Source: a virus
Strand: one strand, 5' to 3'
Length of the DNA: 21,917 nt
IMG/VR virus record: IMGVR_UViG_3300047359_000932
Span: 1 to 21,917 of that record
A program made the translations under genes and the position numbers. The notes below the pieces were generated by a model, which did no database searches, was not told the origin of the DNA, and saw nothing but the letters and a program-made list of their open reading frames with translations. The stretch's first letter is position 1. Every line of letters starts with the position of its first letter. This document shows, in pieces, positions 1,515 to 21,917 of the stretch.

Positions 1515-3284
1515 ATGACGGCAAATACATATTTACAAGTTTCAGAACTAGACTTTGATCAAATAAGATCAAATCTAAAAACATATTTAAGCAGCCAAGA
1601 CCAATTCAAAGATTATAATTTTGAAGGTTCTGCGATGGCAGTTCTTCTTGATGTGCTTGCGTATAATACTCATTATAACGCATACTATTTGAATATGGTT
1701 GCTAATGAAATGTTTTTGGATACTGCTCAACAAAGAGACTCAGTTGTATCAAGAGCTAAAGAATTGGGTTATGTTCCAATTTCTTCCGTCGGCGCTAGGG
1801 CTGAAATTAATATTCAATTCAAAGGAGTTGGCGCTACAGTAAATCAATTTACAATTCCTAAGAATTCAAAATTCACCACAACAGTTGATGATATAACATA
1901 CACATATGTCACCCCTTCGGCAAATAAAGTAACTCGTTCTTCTGCTAATACTTTTGTTAAGAAGATAACAATTAAAGAAGGAGAGCCACTTTCTCATAGT
2001 TGGACTGTGAGCGCAACGAATCCTGTTAGATATATTATACCAAATGCTGGCGTTGATACAACTAGCATAACAGTAAGCGTTCAAGAATCTGCGACCGATA
2101 CAACCACTATCGAATACAATCGCGCGACTAATATTGAACAAGTGGGGTCAACAAGTCCATTATATTTTATTGAAGAAGCTGCTGATCAAAAATATGAAGT
2201 CGTTTTCGGTTCAGGATCATTAGGTAAGTCAGTTAAGCCAGGAAATATAATCACAGTTGAATATCTTGTAAATAATGGCGAAGAAACTAATGGCGCATCT
2301 ACGTTTAGTGTTGATTCAATTGATATTGGGACGCCATATACTAGCGCAGTTGTAACTTCTGTTGCGACAAACGCAAACGGTGGTCGTCCACAAGAAACCA
2401 TAGAATCAATCAAATTTTCGGCTCCCAGAAATTACCAAACGCAAAATAGGGCAGTTGTTGCTGAGGATTATCAACGAATACTTTTAAGCGAAAATCCTGA
2501 CTTACAATCTGTGATAGCTTATGGTGGCGAGCAAGCATCTCCTGCCGTAAATGGTAAGGTTTTTATTGCTGTTAAGCCTTTTGGCGAGCAGTTTGCAACT
2601 CAAAACAGAAAACAAGCAATCAGATCATCAATAATTACAAGAACGCCTCTTGCTGTTGATCCAGTTATTATTGACGCTGATTATACATATATCATTCCTT
2701 CGATCACCACATATTATGACATAACACGTTCTTCCTTGACAGATTCTGCGGTTGAGCAAAATATTAGAACAGCTGTCCAAGAATATGCCACAAATAATCT
2801 AGAAAGGTTTGGTAATAGGTTTAGATTCTCAAGATTTGTTCGTTCTTTGGATAATACATCTGGCGGTGCTATTTTGAATAATGGCGCGAGTATTGAGATT
2901 CAAAAACGAATTACTCCGAATACAAATATTGCTGAGTTGGTTGAACTAAATTATAATAATGAGATTAGGCCTGGATCGTTATCTTCAACTGAATTTACAT
3001 ATAATGGATTCCCAGCATTCCTCGGAGACGATGGTCTTGGGGTTGTTTCTATATTTAGATATAATGATCAAAAGCAAAAAGTAAACATTATTGTTTTGGC
3101 TGGAACTATTGATTATACAAATGGTATTGTCAAAGTTGAAAACTTCTTGCCATCTTCTTATGCTGATACTGAATTAAAAGTAACTGTGGTTCCAGAAAAC
3201 TTGGATATCATTCCAGTAAGGGAACAGATTCTTCTTATGGAATCTGGCGATGCAATAATTAATGTTGTTGGTGAACAAACCTAA
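1515..3284 (+). CDS. gp6: gp6-like baseplate wedge subunit
   Basis: The 589-aa product is slightly shorter than T4 gp6 (660 aa). Its N-terminal 90 residues carry the strongly conserved gp6 pattern: DFDQIRSNLKTYLSSQDQF, then FEGSAMAVLLDVLAYNTHYN, then YLNMVANEMFLDTA, then the DSVVSRAKELGY helix. A Baseplate_J-like middle follows, and a C-terminal part with RNRF-type text (RFGNRFRFSRFVRSLDN) and a beta-rich end. In T4, gp6 forms dimers that tie adjacent wedges into a ring and bind gp25 and gp7. It starts immediately after the gp25 stop and ends in a TAATG overlap with the next gene. The identification rests on the N-terminal motif and the gp25-gp6 gene order. Confidence 0.92.
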   Translation: MTANTYLQVSELDFDQIRSNLKTYLSSQDQFKDYNFEGSAMAVLLDVLAYNTHYNAYYLNMVANEMFLDTAQQRDSVVSRAKELGYVPISSVGARAEINIQFKGVGATVNQFTIPKNSKFTTTVDDITYTYVTPSANKVTRSSANTFVKKITIKEGEPLSHSWTVSATNPVRYIIPNAGVDTTSITVSVQESATDTTTIEYNRATNIEQVGSTSPLYFIEEAADQKYEVVFGSGSLGKSVKPGNIITVEYLVNNGEETNGASTFSVDSIDIGTPYTSAVVTSVATNANGGRPQETIESIKFSAPRNYQTQNRAVVAEDYQRILLSENPDLQSVIAYGGEQASPAVNGKVFIAVKPFGEQFATQNRKQAIRSSIITRTPLAVDPVIIDADYTYIIPSITTYYDITRSSLTDSAVEQNIRTAVQEYATNNLERFGNRFRFSRFVRSLDNTSGGAILNNGASIEIQKRITPNTNIAELVELNYNNEIRPGSLSSTEFTYNGFPAFLGDDGLGVVSIFRYNDQKQKVNIIVLAGTIDYTNGIVKVENFLPSSYADTELKVTVVPENLDIIPVREQILLMESGDAIINVVGEQT

Positions 3285-6145
3285 TGATAAAGGCAAAACT
3301 GTCAAAACTTGTAAAGAATCAATTCCCAGATTTTTATAAAGAAGATGGGCAAAATTTTCTTGCGTTTGTTGAAGCATATTATGAGTATCTTGAGCAAAAT
3401 GGTAAGTTGACAGATGTCATTCAAAACATTCAAGATTATAGAGATATCAATACCACACTAGATGAATATATTGATTTCTTTCAAGACACTCTTCTTCCAT
3501 CAGTTCCTCATGATATTTTGGCTGATAAGAGAAATTTTGCAAAATATGTAAAATTATTCAACAACCGACGAGGATCGCTTTCTTCATATAAACTTCTTTT
3601 TAGAATCATCTACAATGAAGATGTTACGGTGAATTATCCAGCAGATCAAATGTTAAAAGTATCTGATGGGGATTGGAGGCTTGATAGATATTTAGTTGTA
3701 AACTACAACCCAAAAGTTTACAACTTTATTGGAAAGACTATAATAGGAACTGAGTCTGGAGCGCAGGCTCTTGTTGAAGATGTTGTTGGTAGAGTTGTTA
3801 GAAGCCGTGATATTATGCAAATCATTGTATCAAATATCAAGGGTTCATTTAATCACTTAGAGCCTGTTCGATTACTGGGCGAAGTGACAGCAAACACATT
3901 TTCTCCATTGGTTGAAGCTGGAATATCTTCTGTCACAATCGTAAACAGCGGTGCTGAATATAGAAAGGGTGATGTAGTTAAAATCATTTCGGATAAAGTT
4001 GGTGATTTTGGTAAGGTTGTTGTTACAGATACGGTTGACCTTGGTGGCTCGATAACTTTTTCTATCACAGAAGGCGGTTCAGGATATACTTCTTCAATAG
4101 GCGGTGAAGATCAAGGCGAAACTCAAATCAATATATTTGGTGGAGATGGGCAATCGCCTGCCAGTTTCGATTTACAGCAATCAGATATCGGCGACACATT
4201 CGCATTATCGTTCAATACTAATTTGATTAGCGGGAATAATGCTTTTGGTTCTTCTGGTCCGCTTGTCACATATTCTGACAGTTCTACTGGAATAATGGAC
4301 ACATTTGCGAATACGCTTCTTTCTTCTCCAAGTTTTGGGTTTCCTGAACAAAATGAGGTTTTGGTTAACAACGATTTTAGAGATAACACAAACGCAGCTA
4401 TTAATATCGCAACGACTGGAGCTGGAGTTCTGAGCGTTGGCGATTCAATCTTTGGTGTAACATCAGGCGCTAACGGTATTGTCAATGAAATTGTAGACGG
4501 GACGTCTGGCGACGCTTGGTTTAGAGTTGATACCTATAAAAGATTTACATCAACAGAAACTGTCAAAAAACATTTTGCTGGTGGCGGTGGGACATCTATT
4601 GGAACAGTTTCTTCTTTTCAGTCTAATACTGTTGGCGGTCATGCTTTACAATTAGGTGTGTTCAGTAACACTCATACAATATCTGAAGGCGATGAACTTG
4701 TTTCTCAAAGCGAATCGCCATACAGTAATAATTATGTTTTTGCTGTTGTTAAAAAAGTTGTCAACACAATCCCAAATGGATATGATGCTGGTGGTGGGGA
4801 TGTTAGAGACTTAATTACATTTAGAGTTACTGCGAATACAACAGCTAATCTGTCAAGTCAATTTGAAACTGGACCGATGGCTTCATTTGTACAGGGGCAA
4901 AATGTCAGAAAGGTCGGAAGCGCAACTACTGTGGGCGTTGTTGCTACTACATCTTCTAACACAACTTTTGAAAATGTATATACAAAACTCGAAGATTCTT
5001 TATTATTTAAAACTACAACCTTTGGTACAATAGAAGAACTTTCAAATAGGGTTGGCGGTTCAGGGTTTACTGTAGCTCCAACAGTTCAAGTGGTCGAACC
5101 AAACATTTCTGCTCTTGGAATCGGAGAACAGTATATTACATTACAATCGGATGATGTGAATTGGGTTACTGGAAACTCAAGCGTAACATCACTCGATACC
5201 AATGATGCGTTGTTCCAAGCAAATACTGGGGCTTCGGGTGACATTAAAGCTGGCTCTGGTCCAAACCTTGTACCAACAACAACTGTTCTCGCCAACGGAA
5301 CATATCAAACAACGGTCAGAGTTTGGCAAGATTTCTTACAGAGAGAGCCTGGAAATGTAATTTTCAAAGTTGGCGAGCCAGTTGCTATTTACAAATATGA
5401 CGGCAGCTATGTTCCTGGTGGATTAGATAATAGAACCTTAACTGGAACTGGTAGCGCTAAAGTTGTAGCAGTTGAAGATAAAGGTGTGCTCGGTAAAAAT
5501 GCTGTAATAACTCCAGGCGTTGGAGCTAACGGAACAGCAACAAGTTTCAGAATAATTGATTCTGGATATTCATATTCTGATGGGGAAAGAGTTAGAATTC
5601 AAGATTCAGGGAGAACAAATTCAACACAAGCTGTTGTCGATTTGAAATTAAATAATGTTGCGAATACGCAAGGGTATTATTCTAGCGCGAGAAGTCATGT
5701 TTCCTCTAAGCGTGGGCACATACAAGACAGTAAATACTATCAAGAATACTCATATGAAATTGTTTCTCCGATTTCTTTGCAACGATATAAAGAAATTGCT
5801 TTGAAACTTGTACATCCTTCTGGGCAATCGCTGTTCGGCAAATATCAATCTCATTCGAATGTTGTTGTTGAGGTCACGACAACTGCAAACAATACTACTA
5901 GAACGCAGGCTAATGGAACCGTGGCGCTTTCTAATACTACTTTCAATTTGGTGGGCACGAATACCGAATACACTAAACACTACTCCAATGGCGATCTAAT
6001 AATTATCGAAACATCACCAAAACAATATATAAAAATGCCACTAAATATAGTATCAAGTGACACTTTGGCAAATACAAAAGTGCAGTGGGCAGCAACTGAT
6101 ATTGCTGCTGCTGACATATTTTACACTAAAGGAACGATTTCCTAA
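3284..6145 (+). CDS. Large baseplate wedge protein in the gp7 position
   Basis: The 953-aa product is close in size to T4 gp7 (1032 aa) and lies between gp6 and gp8, as gp7 does in T4. Residues 1-180 form a helical, aromatic-rich domain (LVKNQFPDFYKEDGQNFLAF, then VEAYYEYLEQNGKL, NRRGSLSSYKLLFRIIYNED, VNYPADQMLKVSDGDWR) known from marine T4-like wedge proteins. The long middle is Ser/Thr/Gly/Val-rich beta structure with repeated 'GxxYxxGD' modules (near 3942, 4070 and 5558). The last 140 residues return to a conserved segment (YYQEYSYEIVSPISLQRYKE, ALKLVHPSGQSLFGKY). It probably links the inner gp6/gp25 core to the outer baseplate. Homology to T4 gp7 itself is not obvious by eye, so no symbol is given. 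It overlaps gp6 and gp8 by one base through TAATG on each side. Confidence 0.78.
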   Translation: MIKAKLSKLVKNQFPDFYKEDGQNFLAFVEAYYEYLEQNGKLTDVIQNIQDYRDINTTLDEYIDFFQDTLLPSVPHDILADKRNFAKYVKLFNNRRGSLSSYKLLFRIIYNEDVTVNYPADQMLKVSDGDWRLDRYLVVNYNPKVYNFIGKTIIGTESGAQALVEDVVGRVVRSRDIMQIIVSNIKGSFNHLEPVRLLGEVTANTFSPLVEAGISSVTIVNSGAEYRKGDVVKIISDKVGDFGKVVVTDTVDLGGSITFSITEGGSGYTSSIGGEDQGETQINIFGGDGQSPASFDLQQSDIGDTFALSFNTNLISGNNAFGSSGPLVTYSDSSTGIMDTFANTLLSSPSFGFPEQNEVLVNNDFRDNTNAAINIATTGAGVLSVGDSIFGVTSGANGIVNEIVDGTSGDAWFRVDTYKRFTSTETVKKHFAGGGGTSIGTVSSFQSNTVGGHALQLGVFSNTHTISEGDELVSQSESPYSNNYVFAVVKKVVNTIPNGYDAGGGDVRDLITFRVTANTTANLSSQFETGPMASFVQGQNVRKVGSATTVGVVATTSSNTTFENVYTKLEDSLLFKTTTFGTIEELSNRVGGSGFTVAPTVQVVEPNISALGIGEQYITLQSDDVNWVTGNSSVTSLDTNDALFQANTGASGDIKAGSGPNLVPTTTVLANGTYQTTVRVWQDFLQREPGNVIFKVGEPVAIYKYDGSYVPGGLDNRTLTGTGSAKVVAVEDKGVLGKNAVITPGVGANGTATSFRIIDSGYSYSDGERVRIQDSGRTNSTQAVVDLKLNNVANTQGYYSSARSHVSSKRGHIQDSKYYQEYSYEIVSPISLQRYKEIALKLVHPSGQSLFGKYQSHSNVVVEVTTTANNTTRTQANGTVALSNTTFNLVGTNTEYTKHYSNGDLIIIETSPKQYIKMPLNIVSSDTLANTKVQWAATDIAAADIFYTKGTIS

Positions 6146-7928: not shown

Positions 7929-10900
7929 ATGGCATCAATCGAAACTAACCTTAACCAAAGTCCTTTCTTTGACGACTTTAATGAGGATAAGAACTTCCAT
8001 CGGGTGTTGTTCAGACCTGGATATGCTGTACAAGCTAGGGAACTGACACAACTACAGACAATATTGCAAAATCAAATTGAAAGGTTTGGCGATAAGATTC
8101 TTCAAAATGGAACAGTTATAAGCGGATGTGATGTCGAAGTACAAAAATGGGATTATGTCAAACTTAGAGATAAAGATGCCAATAATAGAATTATACTTCT
8201 AACAGATTTTTTCAATAATGCTGTTATCGCAAACTGCACGGTGACAGGGGAATCTACTGGCATGACCGCCAAACTGTTAGATGCCGTTGATGGATCTGAA
8301 GGTGCAGCACCTGACTATTTTACTGCTTTTGTCTCATACACAAACTCAGGCGCAAATAATACAACCAAAACATTTGCCGATAATGAAACTCTGATCTTTA
8401 GAAATTCAGTTGGTAATACATTTATTGTTGCTGCGAACACAATTACATCTTCTGCTACTGGTAGAGGTCTTGGGGCTAGAGCGAGCGAAGGCGTTGTCTA
8501 CCACAAAGGGCATTTTATAAGATCGCACAACCAAAGTGGTGTTGTGAGCAAATATAGTACAACTCCAACTTTAAGAGTTGGTTTTGAAACAATAGAAACA
8601 ATTATAGATTCGAATCAAGATTCATCTTTGTTGGATAACGCATCAGGCGCAACTAACTTCACAGCTCCTGGCGCAAGTCGTCTCAAGATATCAACTAAAA
8701 TCAAATCAAAATTATTGACTGATGCGAACACCGCTGGATTTTTCCCTGTTTTGGATTTGCAAGAAGGAAGAATTATTAGGGAAAATGATACAAACTATGG
8801 CGATCTTGAAGTTGAGATGGCCAACAGAACATACGAAGAATCTGGCGACTATGCGTTAGAGCCGTTCAAAGTTAGAATTGAAGAACATTTAAAGACTGAA
8901 GTGAATGGCGGTGTTTATTCCGCAGGCGCTCCAGAAAATGGAGACAGAAATAAGTTGGTAGTCGAGGTCGAGCCTTCAGTTGGTTATATTCGAGGATATC
9001 GAACAGAATTGACAGACATTGTTCGAGAATCGATCGATAAAGCTACAACATTCGATGTTAAAGAAGATGTTATTGTTGGGCAGGCTTATGGCAACTATGT
9101 GGTCTGTGATGAAGTTGCTGGTTCTTGGGATTTCCAAGGGCTTCGTCAGGTAACTCTTTACGACACAGCCCAAAATGCTATTACTGACCGAGAGTTTGGC
9201 AGCGTATCGCTCAGCGGTAGTTCGATCGGTACTGCTCGCGTCAGAGGATTCCAATACCATTCAGGCGTAGCTGGAACACCTGATGGTCGATTTAGAATAT
9301 ATCTATTTGATATCCAAATGAATTCGGGGAAATCTTTTTCTGATGTAAGGTCTTTATATATTTCAAATTCAGACGCTGATGGCGTTGGTGATATTGTTCT
9401 TCAAAATAATACCGCCAGACTACAAGATACCAGTTTGACATCTTTAGTTTTCCCCTTACAGAATTCGGGCGTTAAAAAACTTGCTGATGCTACTGATTCG
9501 GTCCAAACACAATATGTCTTTAGGACTGAAAAGTCAGTTACATTTTCTCAAGCAGGGACAGCAACAGTCTCAGCCAATACAGCACATACTGGTGGGTCTG
9601 AGGGCAACAACGATACTGGCGCTCCATTAACAAGTGTTGACGAAAAGAATGTAATTATTGTTGGCAAAACTGCTGCCGAAACTACCCCGATGACTGGTCA
9701 AGTTTCGCAGTCAGGATATTCAATAACTGGATCCGGAACATCTTTTTCCACTCAATATAGAGTTGGCGAGTATATAAAGGTTGGGTCCAACCCGATCCAA
9801 AGAATTGTTGATATTGTCAATAACACATCCATGAGCGTATCAACCAGTAATACTTATGGGACATCTTCTCACGCCAAGTCTTTTCCTGCTGGATACATTT
9901 ATGATTTGGCCTCTAATGGGACAATTACATCAACCACTTCGCAGCATCAAATTAATCTAGAACAAGCTAATCTAGCATCAACCTTTACCGCTTCTGTTTA
10001 TTTTGATGTACTGAGGTCTAATGCCACTCAAGCTAATAAGACGGTTGTAAAAGATAAGTTCATACATATCAACACAGGAAGCCATTCGGCTTCTTCTGAT
10101 GGACCATGGTCTCTTGGTGTTTCTGATGCATTTAAAATATCTGCTGTTTATTTGGGTGGGAATACTACTGTAACATCTGCAGATACAGATGTCACTCAAG
10201 AATTTAAACTCGACGATGGGCAAAGAGATTCATTTTATGATACATCTAGATTGGTCAAGAATGCAACTAGCAGTTTAGATACTGTAAACAAAGGGCTTCT
10301 TGTCAAATTCAGCTATTTTGGTCGCGATCGTTCTGCTGGTATAGGGTTCTTAACTGTTGATTCTTACCCAATCGATGATGCTAACCCAACTGGTGCGACA
10401 AATATAACAACTCCAGAAATACCGAAATATGCAACTCAAAGCGGAACAGTATTAGATTTGAGGGATAGTGTAGATTTCAGACCAATAAAGGCAAATACAG
10501 CAGAACCTAATGCAAACACTGCTGGCGTTTCTGCTCCCACTAATCCAAGTTTAGCAACAACATTTGATGTTGATCCTGATGGTGCGTATCTACCAGCACC
10601 TGATAAAAACTTCCAAGCTGATATCCAAAGATATCTTCCTCGAATAGACTTGGTGACTTTGAGATCAAACGGAATTGTTAGTGTTATTAAGGGCGCTCCA
10701 GGAGAAAATCCAAAAGTTCCAAAAGAAGATTCAAACGCTATGACTTTGGCGACTGTGATTATACCGCCATATCCTTCTTTGTCACCCGAAGCTGCAACAT
10801 ATTATGGAAGACCAATTTATGAGGTTTTGGTGCAGGAGAAAGATAACAAACGATTTACTATGGCTGATTTGCGAGGTCTAGAGCAAGAAGTTATAAATCA

Positions 10901-14113: not shown

Positions 14114-17100
14114 ATGACAGTTAATGTTTCAAATACAGAACTTAACAATAGTTTCAATACTTGGAGGCTGAACACAAACTATATTGCTACAATCATTAGC
14201 AATAATGTTGTGACAGTTGCTCGAAGCGGTTCTGCCAACAGAGGTGCAGTTTCTCAAGGAAATGGTCACATTAAAGGAACTTTATCCGCAACTGAATTTA
14301 GAGCGAATACGCTAAAGGGTGGCAATACATCCACTGTTACTGGCGGGACAATTACAATCGCTTCAAATACAATTGTTAATCCTCAAACATTCACTGTAAA
14401 TGCCAATACTACATTCAATGGTAATGTGATATTTAATACAGCTGGTGCTGACCGAGTCAACCTTGGCGATATCAGCCGAATAATTGTTGGTGGCGGTAGT
14501 ACTGGCCAATTCTTAAGAATTTCAGGAGAAAACGATAACCCAGAATTCAAATCTTTAACTCTACGAGATGTTACTGATTTATCGTCAAACTCTGCTCATC
14601 TTATTCTTTCTGGCTCAAACACAACTTTTAGCGATAATAAAGATTCTCCTCATTTGAGGTTTGCTGGTGGCGAAGGCGACAAGGTAGAAATATTCCTTGC
14701 AGCTGATGCGACTATTGGCGATTCTGACTTGTATTTACAATTAGCTGATACTGCTGGAGATTCAAAACTTGTTATAACTGATTCAGCAAACTCAGTTGTC
14801 GCAACTGTTGATTCGGACGGATCTGCTACTTTTGTTGGTAACATGAGTGTTTCGGGTTCTAGCGCATTAAACGGAACAACTGTAACAACTCTAACAGCTA
14901 ATGGCGCTGTTGATTTCAATTCTAGTTTAAATGTTGATGGAAGTTCTACTCTTAATGGTTTGTCTGTCACCACTCTGACTGCCAATGGAGCTTCAGCTCT
15001 TAATGGCGTGACTGCTACAACTCTAACAGCTAATGGCGCTGTTGATTTCAATTCTAGTTTAAATGTTGATGGAAGTTCTACTCTTAATGGCTTGAGCGTG
15101 ACTTCTTTGACTGCCAATGGAGCTTCAGCTCTTAATGGCGTGACTGCTACAACCCTAATAGCCAACGGATCAATACAATTTAAAGATAGCATTTCTTATA
15201 ATTCTACAGTTATATTTGGACAGAACGGTAAGCTGCATGTAAACAATTCTATTACTGATAGTACCATAAGAAACGCCCAAATACATAAAAGCAGTTATAC
15301 TATAGCGACAGATGGAACTGGCGCTGATTTTTCTCCAGAGTTTGGTGAGACAATAAACTTCAATGAAGGTGAAGGCGTAAACATTGCGTTAACTGCAAAT
15401 ACAGTAACTATAAGCGGTGAAGATGCTTCTGCTACTAACAAAGGTATTGCTAAATTTGATACTGATGATTTTGATGTTTCTAGCGGAAATGTCACTCTTG
15501 GCAATTCATTAAATGGTGCGGTTCTTTCAGTTGCAGGAACTACTAATGAAGTTAATGTTTCAAGAACAAATGGAACTGTTACTGTAGGGTTGCCTGACGA
15601 TGTAACGATTGGCGACGACTTAACAGTGACTGGAGATCTGAGCGCTGGTGGGTCTACATCATTACACGCTGCGAGCGCAACTACGCTGACAGCAAACGGT
15701 GCTTCAAATCTATATGGTAACTTAACTGCTAATGGATCTACAGTAGAAATTGGTACTGACCGAACTCTTGAAAGCGAAGCAACCAGAAGCGCGATGCACG
15801 GTAATGGCGGTCTTTCTACATTAAGAGTATATGCTAATACTGTATTTTATGATCGAGTTGATATTCCTGGAGGGATTACTACCACAGCATCATCTAATTT
15901 CAGTAACATAACTGTAACAAATAATTCGGATCTTCAAAATGATGTTACGGTCGGTGGTCAACTGAGCGTTTCAGAAAACGTAGTAATTTCTGGAAATTTG
16001 GTTGTTTCTGGAACCACTACCACTGTCAACACTGAAGAAATAAAATTAGCTGATAACATTATAACTCTTAATAGCGACCTTGGCTCTGGAGTTGCGCCAT
16101 CTCAACATTCTGGGATTGAAGTTAATCGAGGAAGTTCTGCTAATGTTGCGCTTCGTTGGAACGAAACAAGTGATATATGGCAAATAACTGAAGACGGCAC
16201 AAACTATGATGAAATACTAACCGACAGCGGTAGAACTATTTCTGATAGAACTGACTTGTCAACTAGCGTTCTTGGTAGTGATTATCTATTAATTCTTGAT
16301 AGTAGCGACACTGGTAAATTGAAGAAAGCATCAATTACCAATGCAGCACTACAAGGTCCAAAGGGTGAAAAAGGTCAGAAAGGTGAAGTTGGCCAGAAAG
16401 GCGAAGTTGGCCAGAAAGGGCAAAAGGGTGAAGTTGGCCAAAAAGGTGAAGTTGGCCAGAAAGGTCAAAAGGGTGAAGTCGGAGCCACTGGAGCTAAAGG
16501 CGATACAGGACAAAAAGGTCAAAAGGGTGAAGTCGGAGCCACTGGAGCTAAAGGCGATACTGGAGCTAAAGGCGATAAAGGTCAGAAAGGTCAAAAGGGT
16601 GAAGTCGGAGCCACTGGAGCTAAAGGCGATACTGGAGCTAAAGGCGATAAAGGTCAGAAAGGTCAAAAGGGTGAAGTCGGAGCCACTGGAGCTAAAGGCG
16701 ATACAGGACAAAAAGGTCAGAAAGGCGAAGTTGGCCAGAAAGGCGATACTGGCCAGAAAGGCGATAAAGGTCAGAAAGGTCAAAAGGGTGAAGTTGGCCA
16801 GAAAGGCGATACTGGCCAGAAAGGCGATACAGGACAAAAAGGTCAGAAAGGCGATAAAGGTCAGAAAGGCGAACAGGGCGTCATTTCTTTAACTGATCCA
16901 GATGCTGATCGTATTGTTTTCTGGGATGATAGTGCGACCGATTTTGCATTCCTTACTCCGAGTACAGGGTTATCTATCAGCGGTACGAGTTTAATTGCAG
17001 ATGTCGTCACGAGCGCTTCGTTTAATACAGGGAATGGCGTTTTAACTCTTGATACATCGGTCGGTACTGATATCACTGTGGATCTTGATGGAAGGTTTAC

Positions 17101-17596
17101 TGATAATTCTTTTGCTGATACTATGAACCAGAATCTAAGAACAACTGATAATGTTCATTTTGAAGGATTGATGATTGGTCAAACTACTGGGTCGGCAGCA
17201 AATGAAATTCGTTGTGTGGGTGACATTGTTGCATACTATTCTGACGACAGACTAAAAACTAGAATAGGTAACATCGAAAACGCTCTTGATAAGGTAAACA
17301 AATTAAATGGATTCACATTCAAGCCAAACGAACTAGCAATAAAAATGGGTCTTGATCCAAACGATAAGATAAGAGTTGGCGTGAGTGCGCAAGAGGTAGA
17401 ATCTGTATTACCAGAAGCAGTAACAGATGCGCCAATCGAGAACGACCAAGGATACAAAACAGTACAATATGAAAAAATTGTGCCACTATTAATTGAATCA
17501 ATTAAAGAAATTACAGAACAAAATAAAGAGCTTAAATCTCAAATTCAAGAAGTTCAGAAGCAGATAGAACTGGAAAAAGAAGAAAAGGGCGAGTAA
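14114..17596 (+). CDS. Long tail fibre with collagen-like shaft and Peptidase_S74 chaperone
   Basis: The 1160-aa product is built from modules. (1) An N-terminal virion-attachment-like segment (SNTELNNSFNTWRLNTNYIA, residues 5-24). (2) Beta-rich shaft with 'LTANG...LNG' repeats, including a perfect-period 44-aa tandem (258-345). (3) A FGQNGKLHVNNSI module near 367. (4) A common fibre domain (VNTEEIKLADNIITLNSDL, then GIEVNRGSSANVALRWNE, about 636-735). (5) 58 uninterrupted Gly-X-Y triplets (748-921). (6) A short beta domain. (7) A C-terminal Peptidase_S74 domain beginning YSDDRLK. In that family the chain cuts itself before the Ser, with a Ser/Lys dyad six residues apart, here Ser1043 and Lys1048. 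The released 118-residue chaperone ends in a long coiled coil. This should be a trimeric host-recognition fibre. It ends in a TAATG overlap with the next gene. Confidence 0.87.
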   Translation: MTVNVSNTELNNSFNTWRLNTNYIATIISNNVVTVARSGSANRGAVSQGNGHIKGTLSATEFRANTLKGGNTSTVTGGTITIASNTIVNPQTFTVNANTTFNGNVIFNTAGADRVNLGDISRIIVGGGSTGQFLRISGENDNPEFKSLTLRDVTDLSSNSAHLILSGSNTTFSDNKDSPHLRFAGGEGDKVEIFLAADATIGDSDLYLQLADTAGDSKLVITDSANSVVATVDSDGSATFVGNMSVSGSSALNGTTVTTLTANGAVDFNSSLNVDGSSTLNGLSVTTLTANGASALNGVTATTLTANGAVDFNSSLNVDGSSTLNGLSVTSLTANGASALNGVTATTLIANGSIQFKDSISYNSTVIFGQNGKLHVNNSITDSTIRNAQIHKSSYTIATDGTGADFSPEFGETINFNEGEGVNIALTANTVTISGEDASATNKGIAKFDTDDFDVSSGNVTLGNSLNGAVLSVAGTTNEVNVSRTNGTVTVGLPDDVTIGDDLTVTGDLSAGGSTSLHAASATTLTANGASNLYGNLTANGSTVEIGTDRTLESEATRSAMHGNGGLSTLRVYANTVFYDRVDIPGGITTTASSNFSNITVTNNSDLQNDVTVGGQLSVSENVVISGNLVVSGTTTTVNTEEIKLADNIITLNSDLGSGVAPSQHSGIEVNRGSSANVALRWNETSDIWQITEDGTNYDEILTDSGRTISDRTDLSTSVLGSDYLLILDSSDTGKLKKASITNAALQGPKGEKGQKGEVGQKGEVGQKGQKGEVGQKGEVGQKGQKGEVGATGAKGDTGQKGQKGEVGATGAKGDTGAKGDKGQKGQKGEVGATGAKGDTGAKGDKGQKGQKGEVGATGAKGDTGQKGQKGEVGQKGDTGQKGDKGQKGQKGEVGQKGDTGQKGDTGQKGQKGDKGQKGEQGVISLTDPDADRIVFWDDSATDFAFLTPSTGLSISGTSLIADVVTSASFNTGNGVLTLDTSVGTDITVDLDGRFTDNSFADTMNQNLRTTDNVHFEGLMIGQTTGSAANEIRCVGDIVAYYSDDRLKTRIGNIENALDKVNKLNGFTFKPNELAIKMGLDPNDKIRVGVSAQEVESVLPEAVTDAPIENDQGYKTVQYEKIVPLLIESIKEITEQNKELKSQIQEVQKQIELEKEEKGE
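14885..15148. repeat. 132-bp tandem repeat, two copies plus a partial third
   Basis: Two copies (14885-15016 and 15017-15148) encode a 44-residue unit with the pattern TLTANGAVDFNSSLNVDGSS, TLNGLSVTTLTANGASALNG, VTAT. A third copy begins at 15149 (ACAACCCTAATAGCC) and decays after about 20 bp. The copies are nearly identical in DNA, differing mainly around the LSVTT/LSVTS codons. The unit itself contains two shorter 'TLTANGA...LNG' half repeats. This is a recent in-frame duplication in the shaft of the first fibre. Confidence 0.88.
16355..16876. repeat. Collagen-like Gly-X-Y tract of fibre 1 (58 triplets)
   Basis: Every third codon is Gly from residue 748 to 921 with no interruption. The X-Y pairs are almost all QK, EV, DT, AK, AT and DK; the only proline is in the first triplet (GPK). 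Lys in Y is usually followed by Gly-Glu or Gly-Asp, the pairing known to form stabilising salt bridges between collagen chains. The tract should form a rigid trimeric rod of about 174 residues just before the distal beta domain and the chaperone. Confidence 0.93.
16517..16660. repeat. Exact 72-bp tandem duplication inside the collagen tract
   Basis: The 72 bases starting at 16517 are repeated without change from 16589. Shorter copies flank them: the same first 43 bases also start at 16463 and 16661, with spacings of 54, 72 and 72 bp. All periods are multiples of 9, so the Gly-X-Y register is kept. Identity at synonymous sites means the expansion is recent. Confidence 0.88.
17240..17593 (+). 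other. Predicted self-released Peptidase_S74 chaperone domain of fibre 1
   Basis: This is residues 1043-1160 of the fibre. It starts at the Ser of SDDRLKTRIGNIENALDKVN and continues with KLNGFTFKP, VGVSAQEVESVLPEAV and VQYEKIVPLLIESIKE, all standard features of intramolecular chaperones of the S74 family. Cleavage before Ser1043 after the trimer has folded is known for the family and inferred here. The last ~45 residues form a charged coiled coil. Confidence 0.82.
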
Positions 17597-17934
17597 TGGG
17601 AGCAAAGGCGAATATAATCATCGATCAGGGTGCTGATTACTCAACTTCACTTACTGTGACAGAGGATGATGGAACTGCAACTGATCTGACTGGTTACACT
17701 GGCGCTGGTCAAATTCGGAAACATTATGCTTCCTCGACAGCTTATGATTTTGATATTATCTTTGCTGCTGACAGAAGCAGTGGGGTTGTTACCTTATCTT
17801 TATCGAGAGCAACTACCGAAACAATAGAAGCTGGAAGATATGTTTATGATGTTGAAATAACAAGCGCAGCAAACAATAGAACAAGATTAGTAGAAGGAAT
17901 CGCCACCGTTACTCCTCAGGTCACTAAAATATAA
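17596..17934 (+). CDS. Small beta-sandwich virion protein (Ig-like / BppU-N-like)
   Basis: The 112-aa product is all-beta in character: KANIIIDQGADYSTSLTVTE, DDGTATDLTGYTGAGQIRKH, then SGVVTLSLSRATTETIEAGR, YVYDVEITSA and VEGIATVTPQVTKI. The order (N-terminal strand with QGA, 'DLTGYT...QIRK', 'G.v.lslt...t..i..G.YvYD.ev', 'eGi..V.P.vT') is that of small Ig-like proteins found next to fibre genes in T4-like marine phages, and it resembles the N-terminal domain of lactococcal-phage BppU. It probably decorates or connects a fibre. The start overlaps the fibre stop (TAATG), with AAAAGGGCGAG just upstream as ribosome binding site. The function is inferred from fold-like pattern and context. Confidence 0.78.
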   Translation: MGAKANIIIDQGADYSTSLTVTEDDGTATDLTGYTGAGQIRKHYASSTAYDFDIIFAADRSSGVVTLSLSRATTETIEAGRYVYDVEITSAANNRTRLVEGIATVTPQVTKI

Positions 17935-17946
17935 TTCAGTCGAGGA

Positions 17947-17954
17947 TATAAACA
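17947..17954 (+). promoter_or_regulatory. Weak late-promoter-like octamer TATAAACA
   Basis: TATAAACA (one mismatch to TATAAATA) lies in the 41-bp gap before the ATG at 17976. The position fits a late promoter but the mismatch falls in a conserved base. GGGAGA (17965-17970) is the ribosome binding site of the next gene. Confidence 0.25.
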
Positions 17955-17975
17955 GTAGCGACTTGGGAGATATAG

Positions 17976-18227
17976 ATGTCGGAATTTAATGTAAAGTTTG
18001 GAACCACCAATACGAATAGAGTCGTCCAAAGAGATTCTGGTACCAATGTCACTCTGAAAACATTTCAACCTGGATCTAATGTCAAAGATCTCGCTGATGT
18101 TGATATGAATTCCCTTCCAGATGGTGCTGTTTTAGTATATGAAGCAAGTTCTAAAACATTTCAATTAAGAAACCTATTAGTTGTAGATGGAGATGTTGTT
18201 TCTCTCGATGGAGGAAACGATTTCTAA
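17976..18227 (+). CDS. Short fibre-associated protein, 83 aa, ending LDGGNDF
   Basis: I do not recognise a named family. The N-terminal half (MSEFNVKFGTTNTNRVVQRD) is polar. The middle carries 'VKDLADVDMNSLPDGAVLVY', like the 'DLSDVD....DG.VLVYD' strand-turn found in many phage fibre proteins, then SSKTFQLRNLLVVDGDVV and the C-terminal SLDGGNDF. That ending resembles the last residues of the next gene (NGGEYS) and of the 379-aa fibre (DGGTY). It is probably a minor virion protein or the proximal piece of a segmented fibre. It has a good ribosome binding site (GGGAGA, about 6 nt before the ATG) and overlaps the next gene by TAATG. Confidence 0.72.
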   Translation: MSEFNVKFGTTNTNRVVQRDSGTNVTLKTFQPGSNVKDLADVDMNSLPDGAVLVYEASSKTFQLRNLLVVDGDVVSLDGGNDF

Positions 18228-18649
18228 TGCCTGAGCAAATTGTAATAGCCATAAAGCGAAGCCAATCAAATAATGCTCCTGCGAGTTTGGCTAATGGTGA
18301 ATTGGCATATTCGTTTTCTTCTGATAAGCTGTATATTGGTCAAACAGACACATCTGGTTCTGCAGTTTCTGTTGAGTATATTGGTGGGAAACTTCTTGTC
18401 GATAAGGTTGCCAATCTAGAAAGTATAGTTATGGGAACAGATGTTGATAGAACATTCAGCAGTATAACAGTTCAAGAAAAAGCTACAGTTGAGAAATTAG
18501 TTCTTACCAATTTTGTTGAAAATGGTTTAATGTACACTGCTGCTAATGGTATGGTCGTACAAGCAACAGGCACTAGCGGTCAAATAATGCAAGTTTCTAA
18601 CACAGGCGCTCCAGTTTTTGATGATTTGAATGGTGGTGAATATTCGTGA
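18227..18649 (+). CDS. Short tail-fibre-like protein, 140 aa
   Basis: The N-terminus (IVIAIKRSQSNNAPASLANG, then ELAYSFSSDKLYIGQTDTSG) is the same module that opens the two following fibre genes: a basic IKxKRS strand, a variable loop, GELA, and DxKLY. After a helix/strand middle (VANLESIVMGTDVDRTFSSI) it ends with GTSGQIMQVSNTGAPVFDDL and NGGEYS, the 'G..GQ.L.V...G.P.F..L.GG' element of phage fibres. It is short, with no shaft, so it may be a connector or cap and not a complete receptor-binding fibre. GGAGGA about 13 nt before the ATG lies inside the upstream gene; the junctions are TAATG upstream and GTGA downstream. Confidence 0.75.
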   Translation: MPEQIVIAIKRSQSNNAPASLANGELAYSFSSDKLYIGQTDTSGSAVSVEYIGGKLLVDKVANLESIVMGTDVDRTFSSITVQEKATVEKLVLTNFVENGLMYTAANGMVVQATGTSGQIMQVSNTGAPVFDDLNGGEYS

Positions 18650-18963
18650 ATGATTTTGTTGATGCTGAGAAAATTTTAGGAGCATATAGTAAACAAGCAG
18701 AAAGTGAAATAGCAGAACTGAATAAAATTATTGTTGCCTTGAGAACCAAAATTATTATGTTGACAGAAACGCTCGAAGGCGAAAGAGCTAGAGCTGAGGC
18801 TATACCAGTTCCTCCTCCAATTATCTCTCAAATTGCTGAAATGACTGAGACAATTGAAAGGCAAGGCAAAGAAATAGAGTATTTAAAAACTCATGTTGAC
18901 AAATCTGTTATTATAAATAAAGAAAGAAAAGTTCCCCCAACAAGAAAGGGCGGTCTCAGATAA
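18646..18963 (+). CDS. Coiled-coil protein with proline hinge, 105 aa
   Basis: The reading frame starts with GTG in a GTGA overlap with the upstream stop; an ATG at 18650 is out of frame, and no other in-frame ATG occurs until about 18755, inside the helix. Residues 8-48 are a long charged helix (KILGAYSKQAESEIAELNKI, then IVALRTKIIMLTETLEGERA). A hinge (IPVPPPI) follows, then a second helix (SQIAEMTETIERQGKEIEYL) and a basic tail (KERKVPPTRKGGLR). No family is recognised. The layout suggests a small oligomeric rod or fibre chaperone. Its position between two fibre genes supports an assembly or connector role (inference). The DNA encoding its C-terminal part contains a perfect TATAAATA for the next gene. 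Confidence 0.72.
   Translation: MNDFVDAEKILGAYSKQAESEIAELNKIIVALRTKIIMLTETLEGERARAEAIPVPPPIISQIAEMTETIERQGKEIEYLKTHVDKSVIINKERKVPPTRKGGLR
18912..18919 (+). promoter_or_regulatory. T4-type late promoter -10 element TATAAATA inside the upstream gene
   Basis: A perfect TATAAATA lies within the last 17 codons of the coiled-coil gene, 74 bp before the ATG of the 379-aa fibre at 18994. It is coding sequence (Ile-Asn-Lys region), so the octamer could be chance. Its distance from the fibre start equals that of the 855-862 promoter from its gene, which favours a real site. Confidence 0.5.
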
Positions 18964-18993
18964 TATAATAACTACAAAAATAGGATCTTAACA

Positions 18994-20133
18994 ATGGCGT
19001 CTATTATAAAATTAAAAAGAAGTTCAACGCCCAGTTCGGTGCCATCTTCCCTTGAGGTCGGCGAACTCGCTATTAACTTAGCTGATAAAAAATTATACTC
19101 ATATGATGGTTCGAATATTATTACCGTTGCTGGTGCTACTGCTGATACGCTCACTACAGCAAGAACAATCAGTCTAACTGGTGATATCAGCGGTTCAGTT
19201 TCTTTTGACGGTTCTCAAGATGTTTCTATCTCAACCACCATTGGCGCTAATGCGGTTGCCCTTGGTACTGACACTACTGGTAATTATGTTGCTACAATTG
19301 CTGGTACTGCTGGAGAAATTGATGTTTCTGGTTCTGGTAGTGAATCCGCAGCGATAACTCTTAGCTTACCAGATCAAATTACCGCAAATACATCTGGCAA
19401 CGCTGCTACTGCTACTGCTCTGGAAACTGCCAGAACAATTGGTGGCGTTTCGTTCGATGGTACTGCCAATATCAACCTTCCAGGCGTAAACACTCAAGGT
19501 AATCAGGATACAACTGGCAACGCTGCTACTGCCACCGCTCTAGAAACTGCCCGAAACTTCAGCTTAACTGGTGATGTTTCAGCTTCTTCTGTAAGTTTTG
19601 ACGGTTCTGGTAATGTAGAACTAACCACAACTATTCAGCCAAACTCCGTTGCTCTTGGTACAGATACCACTGGTAATTATGTTGCTGGAATTTCTGGTAC
19701 TGCCAACGAAATTAGCGTTTCCGGATCTGGTAGTGAAAATTCCACAGTAACAATCGGATTACCAGATGATGTGACTGTTACTGGTCAATTGAATGTTGGT
19801 GAAAACCTTGTTGTTTCTGGTAATACTCATATTGACGGCAATTTGACCGTTGAAGGTTCTACCACTTATATTTCATCTTCTACCGTAAATGTAGATGATT
19901 CTATGCTGAAGTTGTCTGCTAATAACGCAGCCGACACAGTTGATACTGGTGTGTATGGTATGTATATCGAGTCAGCTACATCCAAATATGCTGGTTACTT
20001 CAGAGATGCATCTGATGGTGCGTTCAAATTCTATGATGGCCTCACTTCTGAGCCAGGATCAACTGTCAACGCAGCCCACGCTTCATACGCATTGGCGCAA
20101 GTTGATGCAATTATTGATGGCGGAACTTACTAA
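18994..20133 (+). CDS. Modular tail fibre protein, 379 aa
   Basis: The N-terminus (MASIIKLKRSSTPSSVPSSL, EVGELAINLADKKLYSYDGS) is the IKxKRS...GELA...DxKLY module. Two ~72-residue shaft blocks follow (about residues 56-128 and 186-258), each reading TAR..SLTGD, SFDG, ALGTDTTGNYVA, GTA.EI.VSGSGSE, LPD. Between them lie two TGNAATATALETAR elements. Next is a standard fibre segment (NLVVSGNTHIDGNLTVEGST, TYISSSTVNVDDSMLKLSAN, then GVYGMYIESATSKYAGYFRD, ASDGAFKFYDGL). The chain ends ALAQVDAIIDGGTY. It has no S74 chaperone and no collagen. It is probably a trimeric fibre or fibre segment. AGGATC lies about 10 nt before the ATG. A strong hairpin terminator follows the stop. Confidence 0.83.
   Translation: MASIIKLKRSSTPSSVPSSLEVGELAINLADKKLYSYDGSNIITVAGATADTLTTARTISLTGDISGSVSFDGSQDVSISTTIGANAVALGTDTTGNYVATIAGTAGEIDVSGSGSESAAITLSLPDQITANTSGNAATATALETARTIGGVSFDGTANINLPGVNTQGNQDTTGNAATATALETARNFSLTGDVSASSVSFDGSGNVELTTTIQPNSVALGTDTTGNYVAGISGTANEISVSGSGSENSTVTIGLPDDVTVTGQLNVGENLVVSGNTHIDGNLTVEGSTTYISSSTVNVDDSMLKLSANNAADTVDTGVYGMYIESATSKYAGYFRDASDGAFKFYDGLTSEPGSTVNAAHASYALAQVDAIIDGGTY
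19159..19773. repeat. Duplicated 72-74-residue shaft blocks in the 379-aa fibre
   Basis: Block 1 (about 19159-19380) and block 2 (about 19549-19773) encode the same series: TAR, SLTGD, SFDG, ALGTDTTGNYVA, SGSGSE, LPD. The two TGNAATATALETAR 14-mers sit near 19390 and 19510. Protein identity is high in the motifs but the DNA has diverged at many sites, so this is an older duplication than the collagen repeats. Confidence 0.75.
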
Positions 20134-20146
20134 ATAGCCTAAGTTC

Positions 20147-20190
20147 GGGGGAGAAATAATGCTTATATAAGCATCTCCCCCTTGTATATT
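20147..20190 (+). terminator. Hairpin terminator after the 379-aa fibre gene
   Basis: GGGGGAG (20147-20153) pairs with CTCCCCC (20175-20181). Inside, a perfect 16-base palindrome (ATGCTTATATAAGCAT, 20159-20174) adds six pairs around an AUAU loop, after a 5-nt AAATA bulge. The sequence after it (TTGTATATTT) is U-rich but not a clean run. It lies 14 bp after the fibre stop, and it is the only strong hairpin I see in the window. Factor-independent termination is the simplest reading; an RNA-processing or stability hairpin is possible. Confidence 0.75.
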
Positions 20191-20203
20191 TACCTTATAT
20201 AAG
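20162..20203. repeat. Two identical CTTATATAAG palindromes, 32 bp apart
   Basis: CTTATATAAG occurs at 20162-20171 (the loop of the terminator) and at 20194-20203, where it extends to ACCTTATATAAGGT (20192-20205). The centre spacing of 32 bp is three turns of the helix. They fill the 94-bp gap before the last fibre gene, in which no TATAAATA is seen. Confidence 0.8.
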
Positions 20204-20227
20204 GTTTGATCAAAGAGAACCATAGAT

Positions 20228-21917
20228 ATGGCATCAGTTGTCAAAATCAAGCGAAGCAATGTCGCTGGAAATAATCCAACCACATCAAATATAGTCGAGG
20301 GAGAACTCGCTCTCAACACCGCAGATCAGAAACTCTATTCTCGTGGCGGTGATGACATATTTGAGATTGGCGCAAATCTATCATCCCTCACGATCAGCGG
20401 TAATGAAGTTTTCGGAACTAACGGTAAACTACACGCAAATAATTCTATCAACATTGGAACTATTACTGGAAACATGCTTTCTAGTGACATCTATGGTGAT
20501 GATGTTGAATACGATTTCGGTTCATTTTCCAGCCCAACAACGCCATATTCGGTAACTGCAAAGGGCGATATTGGTCAAAAGGGCGATATAGGTCAGAAAG
20601 GCGACACAGGCGCAACAGGCGCCAAAGGTCAGAAAGGTGAAATAGGCGACACTGGCTTAACTGGAGAAAAGGGTCAGAAAGGCGAGGTTGGACTTACTGG
20701 CGACACTGGCGACAAGGGTCAAAAAGGCGATATTGGCGCTAAAGGCGATATAGGCGACAAGGGTCAGAAGGGGGAGATTGGTCAGAAAGGCGACACTGGC
20801 GCAACAGGCGCCAAAGGTCAAAAGGGTGAGGTTGGACTCACTGGCCAAACTGGCGACAAAGGTCAGAAGGGAGAAATTGGCCAGAAAGGTGATACAGGTG
20901 ACACTGGCGCTAAGGGTCAAAAGGGTGAGGTTGGACTCACTGGCTTAACTGGCGACAAAGGTCAGAAAGGTCAGAAAGGCGACACTGGTGATATAGGCGC
21001 TACTGGGGATAAGGGTCAGAAAGGTGAAGTTGGCGATAAAGGTCAGAAAGGTGAAGTTGGCCAGAAAGGCGATACTGGCCAGAAAGGTGATATAGGTCAG
21101 AAAGGCGATAAAGGTCAGAAAGGCGACACTGGTGGAACTGGCGCAAAAGGTCAGAAAGGCGATAAAGGTCAAAAAGGTGAAACTGGTTTAGGGTTTAACA
21201 TAGCAAAAACCTATTCCTCAGTGTCAGCGCTGACAGCCGATAGTTCGCCAACTGGTATTTCGGCTGGTGAATTTGCTATCATCGAAACTGGTGATGTTGA
21301 GGATTCTGAGAACTCAAGACTTTATCTTTGGGACGGTTCTTCATACTCCTATGTATCAGATCTATCTGGTGAAGCTGGTGTTAAGGGCGTTGCTGGATCC
21401 AATGGCGATAAGGGTCAGAAAGGTGAAGTTGGCGATAAAGGCCAGAAGGGAGAAATTGGCCAGAAAGGTGATACAGGACAAAAAGGTCAGAAAGGCGAGG
21501 TTGGCCAGAAAGGTCAGAAAGGCGAAGTTGGCCAGAAAGGCGGTACAGGCGACAAGGGGCAGAAAGGCGACAAGGGACAGAAAGGCGAAGCAGGAACGAA
21601 CGGAACGAATGGTGACAAGGGTCAGAAAGGCGAGGTTGGCCAGAAAGGTGATACAGGACAAAAAGGTCAGAAAGGTGAAGTTGGCCAGAAAGGTCAGAAA
21701 GGTGAGCAGGCTGGGATTACTGCAATTTCTAATTTTGTTAACAACAGAGTTTTAACTGCTTCTTCATCTACTGCTATCAATGCAGAGGCTGGGTTATTAT
21801 TTGATGGAACTACATTACAATCTCAAAAATATCATATAGGCACTCCCGATAATCATGGTATGATTAAGATGAGTAATAACACTGGGTCTCATTATGGATT
21901 TGATCCAGAACACAGTT
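20228..21917 (+). CDS. Second collagen-like tail fibre, 3' end outside the window
   Basis: The frame is open from ATG 20228 to the window end (563 codons), so the product is longer than seen. Residues 1-44 are the shared module (MASVVKIKRSNVAGNNPTTS, then EGELALNTADQKLYSRGGDD). A FGTNGKLHANNSI segment like that of the first fibre follows. Gly-X-Y tracts cover residues 113-319 (69 triplets) and 381-494 (38 triplets). They are separated by a ~60-residue globular insert (FNIAKTYSSVSALTADSSPT, then AGEFAIIETGDVEDSENSRL, YLWDGSSYSYVSDL), a unit seen in other phage fibres. After the second tract comes the usual distal text (NNRVLTASSSTAINAEAGLL, FDGTTL). GAGAA lies about 9 nt before the ATG. The receptor-binding end and any chaperone are not in view. 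Confidence 0.86.
   Translation, partial: MASVVKIKRSNVAGNNPTTSNIVEGELALNTADQKLYSRGGDDIFEIGANLSSLTISGNEVFGTNGKLHANNSINIGTITGNMLSSDIYGDDVEYDFGSFSSPTTPYSVTAKGDIGQKGDIGQKGDTGATGAKGQKGEIGDTGLTGEKGQKGEVGLTGDTGDKGQKGDIGAKGDIGDKGQKGEIGQKGDTGATGAKGQKGEVGLTGQTGDKGQKGEIGQKGDTGDTGAKGQKGEVGLTGLTGDKGQKGQKGDTGDIGATGDKGQKGEVGDKGQKGEVGQKGDTGQKGDIGQKGDKGQKGDTGGTGAKGQKGDKGQKGETGLGFNIAKTYSSVSALTADSSPTGISAGEFAIIETGDVEDSENSRLYLWDGSSYSYVSDLSGEAGVKGVAGSNGDKGQKGEVGDKGQKGEIGQKGDTGQKGQKGEVGQKGQKGEVGQKGGTGDKGQKGDKGQKGEAGTNGTNGDKGQKGEVGQKGDTGQKGQKGEVGQKGQKGEQAGITAISNFVNNRVLTASSSTAINAEAGLLFDGTTLQSQKYHIGTPDNHGMIKMSNNTGSHYGFDPEHS
20564..21184. repeat. Collagen-like tract A of fibre 2 (69 Gly-X-Y triplets)
   Basis: Gly falls at every third codon from residue 113 to 319 without a break and without proline. 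Triplets are mostly QKG, EVG, DKG, DTG, AKG and LTG types. Recurrent blocks such as GQKGEVGLTG and GQKGDTGATGAKGQKGE appear, but synonymous codons differ more between copies than in fibre 1. Confidence 0.92.
21368..21709. repeat. Collagen-like tract B of fibre 2 (38 Gly-X-Y triplets)
   Basis: The tract runs from residue 381 (GEAGVKGVAGSNGDKG) to 494 (GEQ), again uninterrupted and proline-free. It contains near-identical DNA copies of the GDTGQKGQKGEVGQKGQKGE block around 21470 and 21650. Confidence 0.92.

Follow-up and report, generated by a model that had tools for sequence, protein, structure and literature searches.

How does a collagen shaft hold together with almost no proline? Proline and hydroxyproline are the standard stabilisers of collagen, and we know of no hydroxyproline in phage collagens or in bacteria generally. 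The question is raised by a 21,917-nucleotide stretch of viral DNA (IMG/VR record IMGVR_UViG_3300047359_000932, positions 1 to 21,917; hereafter the window, meaning the whole stretch analysed), which encodes two predicted tail fibres with three Gly-X-Y tracts. An earlier note on this DNA proposed that the tracts are stabilised by charge alone, through salt bridges of the form Lys-Gly-Glu or Lys-Gly-Asp (KGE/KGD), and linked this to marine salt. The reading that we favour, and to which we give about an even chance, is that axial charge pairs stabilise the shafts jointly with lysine that is hydroxylated and possibly glycosylated. For this phage we infer the lysine modification by analogy with relatives, several of which encode a candidate modifying enzyme beside similar collagens.

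Composition and charge pairing of the tracts

The two fibre genes and their relevant parts are as follows.

14114..17596, + strand: fibre 1, 1160 amino acids, with N-terminal fibre modules, a collagen tract, a post-tract domain and an S74 chaperone; homologues at loci (L numbers) L248-L251, L375, L491, L492, L498 and L500
16355..16885, + strand: collagen tract 1, 59 triplets, 1 proline, 36 lysines in Y, 23 acidic residues in X, net charge +13 per chain
17240..17257, + strand: SDDRLK (amino acids 1043-1048), start of the Peptidase_S74 intramolecular chaperone (amino acids 1043-1104; Pfam PF13884, E = 7.7e-13)
20228..21917, + strand: fibre 2, at least 563 amino acids, its C-terminal part lying beyond the contig end
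20564..21193, + strand: collagen tract 2, 70 triplets, 0 prolines, 35 lysines in Y, 33 acidic residues in X, net charge +2 per chain
21368..21709, + strand: collagen tract 3, 38 triplets, 0 prolines, 22 lysines in Y, 16 acidic residues in X, net charge +6 per chain

The tracts are uninterrupted and contain a single proline, as had been noted, and their total is 167 triplets rather than the 165 given previously. That proline (GPK, first triplet of fibre 1) is the only one in 334 X/Y positions (0.3%); the remaining proteins of the window have 3.3% proline. Matches to the Pfam Collagen model (PF01391) are strong (E = 2e-28 and 7e-52; 98 and 173 bits against a cut-off of 27), and the window collagen belongs to a known kind, the phage collagen-like fibre. 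All 93 lysines are in Y (56% of Y), hence in the context X-Lys-Gly, and all 72 acidic residues are in X. The earlier description of the lysines as almost all followed by Gly-Gln, Gly-Glu or Gly-Asp is borne out (39%, 31% and 28%, respectively). KGQ does not count as a salt bridge, and an acidic axial partner at offset +1 is present for 55 of the 93 lysines.

The excess of KGE/KGD was judged by permuting triplet order within each tract. The 23 pairs of tract 1 exceed the expected 14.0 (p = 5e-5) and are the most that can be reached; for tracts 2 and 3 the counts are 21 (16.4 expected, p = 0.02) and 11 (9.1 expected, p = 0.18). These p values are optimistic because the tract DNA is tandemly repeated. 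The tracts employ all four glycine codons, and the reading frame is therefore more than a recent perfect DNA repeat. Antisense open reading frames across the tracts (16349-16837 and 21362-21661) were rejected as by-products of repeat composition.

The combination of almost no proline with dense KGE/KGD is thus real, and could reflect an unmodified triple helix in which axial Lys-Gly-Glu/Asp bridges take the place of proline and stability depends on salt. Such bridges are strong stabilisers, adding 15.4 and 17.5 °C (KGE and KGD) in host-guest peptides, and the melting temperature of the streptococcal collagen Scl2 varies with pH and ionic strength (PMC7824840). Pairing is saturated in tract 1, where all 23 acidic X residues follow Lys-Gly (21 of 33 in tract 2, 11 of 16 in tract 3). 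Against charge as the sole principle stand the 38 lysines that lack an acidic +1 partner and the net charge of +13 per chain in tract 1.

It is very improbable that the tracts form a non-collagen glycine-rich fold (e.g., polyglycine II) or a flexible linker. Glycine occupies every third position without interruption for 59, 70 and 38 triplets, the setting is a trimeric fibre, the bias towards Asp/Glu in X and lysine in Y is that of verified collagens, and Gly-X-Y domains of phage EPclA were shown to be triple-helical (PMC3368898).

In the arrangement that we favour, the C-terminal module and the S74 chaperone would bring three chains into register, and the registered chains would zip into a collagen triple helix. 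The S74 region of fibre 1 matches a long tail fibre distal subunit (PDB 6f45, E = 1.9e-5), and the spacing of serine and lysine in SDDRLK is presumably that of self-cleaving chaperones. Without proline, the first support would come from axial pairs of the form Lys(Y)-Gly-Glu/Asp(X), which reach saturation in tract 1. A second and more speculative support would be modification of the numerous lysines in Y.

Homologous tracts of fibre 1

Relatives of fibre 1 were found by the neighbouring gene (58-62% identity) or by the pre-tract module, and carry their tract at the equivalent place, after '...LKKATITNAALQ'. The fibre 1 tract of the window has 0.8% proline and 0.39 KGE/KGD per triplet. The corresponding values are 0% and 0.14 in L251, 29% and 0.01 in L250, and 19% and 0.10 in L375. 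Across the homologues proline ranges from 0 to 29% and KGE from 0.01 to 0.39, and the share of lysine in Y is always 0.33-0.8. The conserved element is lysine (Lys-Gly at Y), not the salt bridge.

L491, whose homology to the window extends to both flanks of the tract and the following gene, has a tract of the (GTKGAK)n type. The 70 triplets of this tract contain one proline in 140 positions, 54 lysines, six acidic residues and one KGE. Charge pairs can hardly account for such an acid-poor tract, because polycationic homotrimers, for example (PKG)10, are reported not to assemble as a result of repulsion (PMC7824840).

A three-domain enzyme encoded by relatives

Downstream of a lysine-rich collagen fibre, past one small gene and two 2-oxoglutarate (2OG)-Fe(II) oxygenases, Synechococcus phage S-8S55 encodes a 621-amino-acid protein labelled '2OG-Fe(II) oxygenase' that also matches Pfam GT25 and GT_PLOD. 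Both matches recur in 20 of 20 aligned relatives. The Pfam 2OG model matches 11 of the 20, and for the remainder the assignment rests on profile and fold comparison. A profile of the 20 phage enzymes compared with the PDB matches, from N to C terminus, COLGALT1 (7e-34), the LH3 glucosyltransferase domain (3e-55) and the lysyl hydroxylase domain of mimivirus L230 (6e-15). Foldseek places full-length human LH3 first (1.9e-27) for an AlphaFold model of the enzyme (pLDDT 86.5, pTM 0.84); for single domains the target TM-scores are 0.83 (LH3 glucosyltransferase, 6wfv) and 0.75 (L230, 6ax6). The whole-chain TM-score is low (0.31), and the domain arrangement therefore differs or is uncertain. The motifs DxYD (DxFD in two members), DDQ, HGNG and HxD and a distal histidine are conserved, with invariant catalytic residues. 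Also invariant is K608, at the 2OG-binding position where arginine is usual.

The enzyme is thus predicted to join in one chain domains resembling GT25 (COLGALT1-like), an LH3-type glucosyltransferase and a lysyl hydroxylase. It would convert the lysine of X-Lys-Gly to glucosyl-galactosyl-hydroxylysine. Loci encoding this protein of about 620 amino acids include the following.

L491, 8903-10774
L500, 9980-11845
L524, 10001-11866
L462 (S-8S55), 1620-3485
L455 (S-CAM9), L454 (S-PRM1) and L544 (CRP-6)

IMG/VR holds 503 relatives of the enzyme. PHROG 61, common in marine phages, is described only as a 2OG-Fe(II) oxygenase family, and a 2026 survey likewise gives the enzyme family only this name. 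We found no paper on phage collagen-lysine modification in the open literature, a search that had most subscription papers and all bioRxiv preprints outside its scope. One or two small 2OG-Fe(II) oxygenases lie between collagen fibre and enzyme in cyanophages and in L500 (L455 5702-6867, L460/L462, L500 9411-9983). A variant protein with a GT4-type glycosyltransferase, GT25 and an OGFOD2-like domain is encoded near collagen fibres in L218 (1982-4279) and L224 (2910-5177).

Association of the enzyme with lysine-rich collagen

Among non-redundant loci, the enzyme is present at 12 of 68 with lysine-rich collagen, at 1 of 113 with lysine-poor collagen and at none of 48 T4-like fibre loci without collagen (Fisher 4e-5 and 1e-3, with phage kinship ignored). 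The tract of the single lysine-poor locus with the enzyme, L063, contains GSKGQKGEV. Viewed from the enzyme, 24 of 37 loci have a Gly-X-Y tract, always with the enzyme downstream on the same strand (24/24).

For an unbiased comparison, IMG/VR and GTDB genomes were scanned with the pattern GG plus seven free bases, repeated 30 times; both scans are samples rather than censuses, and their counts apply to the matches listed. Lysine makes up at least 15% of Y in all 24 enzyme-locus tracts versus 18 of 115 unbiased loci (7e-16). In the unbiased scan alone, the association stands at 2 of 4 versus 0 of 111 (p = 0.0009).

The sequence around the lysine also differs. At enzyme loci glutamine is the commonest residue before lysine (49%), with Gln or Glu in the following X, whereas other lysine collagens have Asp, Pro or Glu before lysine and Asp as the next X. 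A GQK share of at least 20% was found at 21 of 23 enzyme loci, 2 of 27 phage loci without the enzyme and 1 of 28 cellular loci; in the window it is 66%. The GQKG of the window is the signature of collagens that adjoin the putative lysyl hydroxylase/glycosyltransferase gene. It also sits poorly with charge alone, as the usual KGD collagens have D/P/E-K-G-D and not Q-K-G-Q/E.

Two other partners were considered. Small 2OG-Fe(II) oxygenases occur at 27 of 64 lysine-rich, 7 of 111 lysine-poor and 10 of 48 collagen-less fibre loci. They are not informative, unlike the three-domain enzyme, because they are no denser there than at T4-like fibre loci without collagen (0.59 against 0.62 per 10 kb). Prolyl hydroxylation was rejected, since it cannot act on proline-free tracts and the relation of oxygenase presence to proline is not significant (p = 0.13).

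Does this phage encode the enzyme?

Three genes between the fibres serve as synteny markers.

17596..17934, + strand: small gene after fibre 1, PHROG 1084 / 3304 (L-shaped tail fibre assembly); 64-74% identity in L500, L250 and L524/L147
18227..18649, + strand: small conserved gene; 55-58% identity in L500, L524, L375 and L250
18994..20133, + strand: fibre-like protein of 379 amino acids without collagen (PHROG search, alignment)

The gene order of L500 is that of the window (a gene like that at 11458, fibre 1, the genes at 17596, 18227 and 18994, and fibre 2); after these come a small 2OG oxygenase gene and then the enzyme. L524 has the genes from 17596 to fibre 2, more fibre genes, a collagen-S74 fibre (8731-9993) with 184 triplets, all proline-free, and the enzyme starting at 10001. 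The enzyme was found in 3 of 75 non-redundant syntenic clusters (L500, L524/L555 and L644), all with lysine-rich collagen, and in 0 of 55 syntenic clusters with lysine-poor or no collagen.

By this comparison the phage of the window is predicted to encode such an enzyme, most likely just past the truncated 3' end. Contigs with collagen of the GQK type tend to stop within the fibre, as do the window (at 21917), L250, L571, L623, L624 and L641. Repeats probably break the assembly of such contigs, which would hide the genes just downstream of the collagen.

Several observations tell against the proposed modification. The window, which ends in fibre 2, has no GT_PLOD match in its 21.9 kb, and the enzyme is absent from the examined parts of the closest relatives (L248-L251, L375). 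GQK-type syntenic clusters with at least 2 kb downstream are evenly split: L644 and L555 have the enzyme, L608 and L659 do not. L608 lacks it although its collagen is proline-free and 7.7 kb lie downstream. These two relatives, without the enzyme in the DNA examined, count in favour of charge alone. Most enzyme loci were grown from a seed set found by the GQKGE motif. Enzyme and GQKG collagen could also be co-inherited in one phage lineage, to which Roseobacter phage CRP-6, not T4-like, is the only clear exception. Finally, triple helix, hydroxylysine and glycan are all predictions from sequence.

Two GQK-type clusters have the enzyme, two do not and five others end inside the fibre, as the window does; on this basis we estimate at about one half the chance that this phage encodes the enzyme nearby. 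We advance more tentatively, at somewhat below an even chance, the wider proposal that proline-free phage fibres rely, for stability or surface properties, on phage-encoded lysine hydroxylation and galactose/glucose glycosylation by a single-chain COLGALT1/LH3 fusion, the window included, with its enzyme just outside the contig.

Proline and charge across phage and cellular collagens

Scarcity of proline does not in itself set the window apart. Among the matches listed, proline fills a median of 10.9% of X/Y positions at 119 usable viral loci, 18 of which are proline-free and 29, about a quarter, have at most 1%; the same limit is reached by 15 of 112 genome loci. Proline scarcity follows base composition: proline correlates with the guanine-cytosine (GC) content of the contig (rho 0.39; lysine in Y, rho 0.02), and at 35-40% GC its share is at most 1% in 12 of 20 unbiased loci. 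Low proline is therefore common among phage collagens. The GC content of the window is 39%. What is rare is low proline joined to dense KGE/KGD, seen at 1 of 115 non-redundant unbiased viral loci and at 13 of 55 non-redundant lysine-rich GQKG loci.

An AT-rich genome might simply lose proline by drift, with tandem duplication amplifying any unit and a chaperone-clamped trimer needing no special chemistry, so that composition has little function. The fall of proline with GC fits this, as do the strong tandem repeats in the tract DNA and the proline-free, uncharged GSS/GTS tracts of many phages. We consider it unlikely, given that lysine in Y is independent of GC and retained among homologues, that KGE/KGD exceeds chance at exactly +1 across independent tracts, and that a putative lysine-modifying enzyme is associated.

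The same survey bears on charge. Of the 29 viral loci with at most 1% proline, 24 have no KGE/KGD, and only L030 reaches at least 0.2 per triplet. Across the unbiased phage collagens listed, proline and KGE correlate positively (rho +0.32), which rules out compensation of proline by charge as a general law; the correlation is negative (rho -0.42) only inside the GQKG class. When the spacing between a basic Y and an acidic X was scanned, the KGE/KGD geometry (offset +1) came out strongest in 25 of 32 phage and 21 of 30 cellular loci, mainly proline-containing collagens, with median observed/expected ratios of 2.4 and 2.7. The window obeys this rule, which is not confined to collagens that lack proline or are marine. 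The fibre of Erwinia phage Simmy50, a phage from bark, exceeds the window in KGE/KGD density (0.46 per triplet, 3.5% proline), which rules out marine or salt specificity as a general rule. Together with the nearly acid-free L491 homologue, these results make charge alone, as proposed earlier, a possible but doubtful reading for the window and not the best-supported one, and they give no support to its marine link.

Long proline-free, little-charged Gly-X-Y tracts (GSS, GTS, GAT, GYS/GFS) occur at L022, L024, L029, L041, L060, L093 and others, several exceeding 100 triplets. Nearly proline-free tracts with KGE/KGD at 0.47-0.58 per triplet occur in two cellular-genome contigs (L368, L369). Loci related to the fibre module (L387 at 7586, L397 at 7619) contain perfect (GAF)n runs, 16-22 units long, which may be another repeat read out of frame. 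A tblastn search of named phages with the tract returned nothing, as expected from low-complexity masking; blastn found cyanophages and Erwinia and Pseudomonas jumbo phages.

Gene order and other features of the window

The window encodes a T4-like baseplate module followed by fibre genes. Its gp6 homologue (1515-3284) is nearest to those of Methylophilales phage Melnitz (37%) and Pelagibacter phage HTVC008M (36%), neither of which has a Gly-X-Y run of at least six triplets in the 49 kb of each examined. The fibre proteins match PHROG tail fibre families. Fibres 1 and 2 are probably trimeric tail fibres of an uncultured, T4-like, probably marine myovirus. In the N-terminal part of fibre 1, positions 14885-15162 comprise about two copies of a 132-base tandem repeat (93% match); in L249 and L250 the matching region has grown into many 'TINNNATVKGT' repeats.

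Comparison with known systems

These loci point to a large natural class of phage collagens nearly without proline. In homologous tracts, proline, charge pairs and acid-poor lysine repeats replace one another, and such tracts can be compared directly to learn what keeps a triple helix together. That a phage LH3/COLGALT1-like enzyme modifies the lysines would be a testable addition, one without precedent in bacteriophages in the open literature searched. If true, it extends collagen lysine hydroxylation and glycosylation to bacteriophages, and it suggests what the long PHROG 61 proteins may act on.

The E. coli prophage fibres EPclA and EPclB (PHROG 6320, 5073 and 819) resemble those predicted here in having a trimeric Gly-X-Y shaft with acidic X, Lys/Arg in Y and no hydroxyproline (PMC3368898). 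They differ in proline in X (48%, with an average of 22% in viral collagens and 0.6% in the window; PMC3368898), and in carrying PfC where fibre 1 carries an S74 chaperone. Streptococcal Scl2 likewise forms a helix without hydroxyproline and with charge-dependent stability, which for the window is predicted, but it has proline in X and is a cell-surface protein. The fibre of Simmy50 (KU886223) also combines low proline (3.5%) with KGD at a very high density (0.46 per triplet), but belongs to a plant-surface jumbo phage and is of the GDKGD rather than the GQKG type; no three-domain enzyme is annotated in the 6.9 kb examined.

Mimivirus, a giant virus of amoebae, also has proline-poor, lysine-rich viral collagen. 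Its L230 protein, GT25-like in its N-terminal part and a lysyl hydroxylase in its C-terminal part, modifies collagen lysine, and hydroxylysine is found in virions (Luther et al., 2011, as reviewed in PMC9614988), whereas the window itself shows no enzyme. L230 is described there with two domains, to which all 20 phage enzymes add an LH3-type GT_PLOD. In humans, LH3 (PLOD3) and COLGALT1 are two proteins in a complex (PDB 8zgc); the phage enzyme of the relatives is predicted to join all three domain types in one chain.

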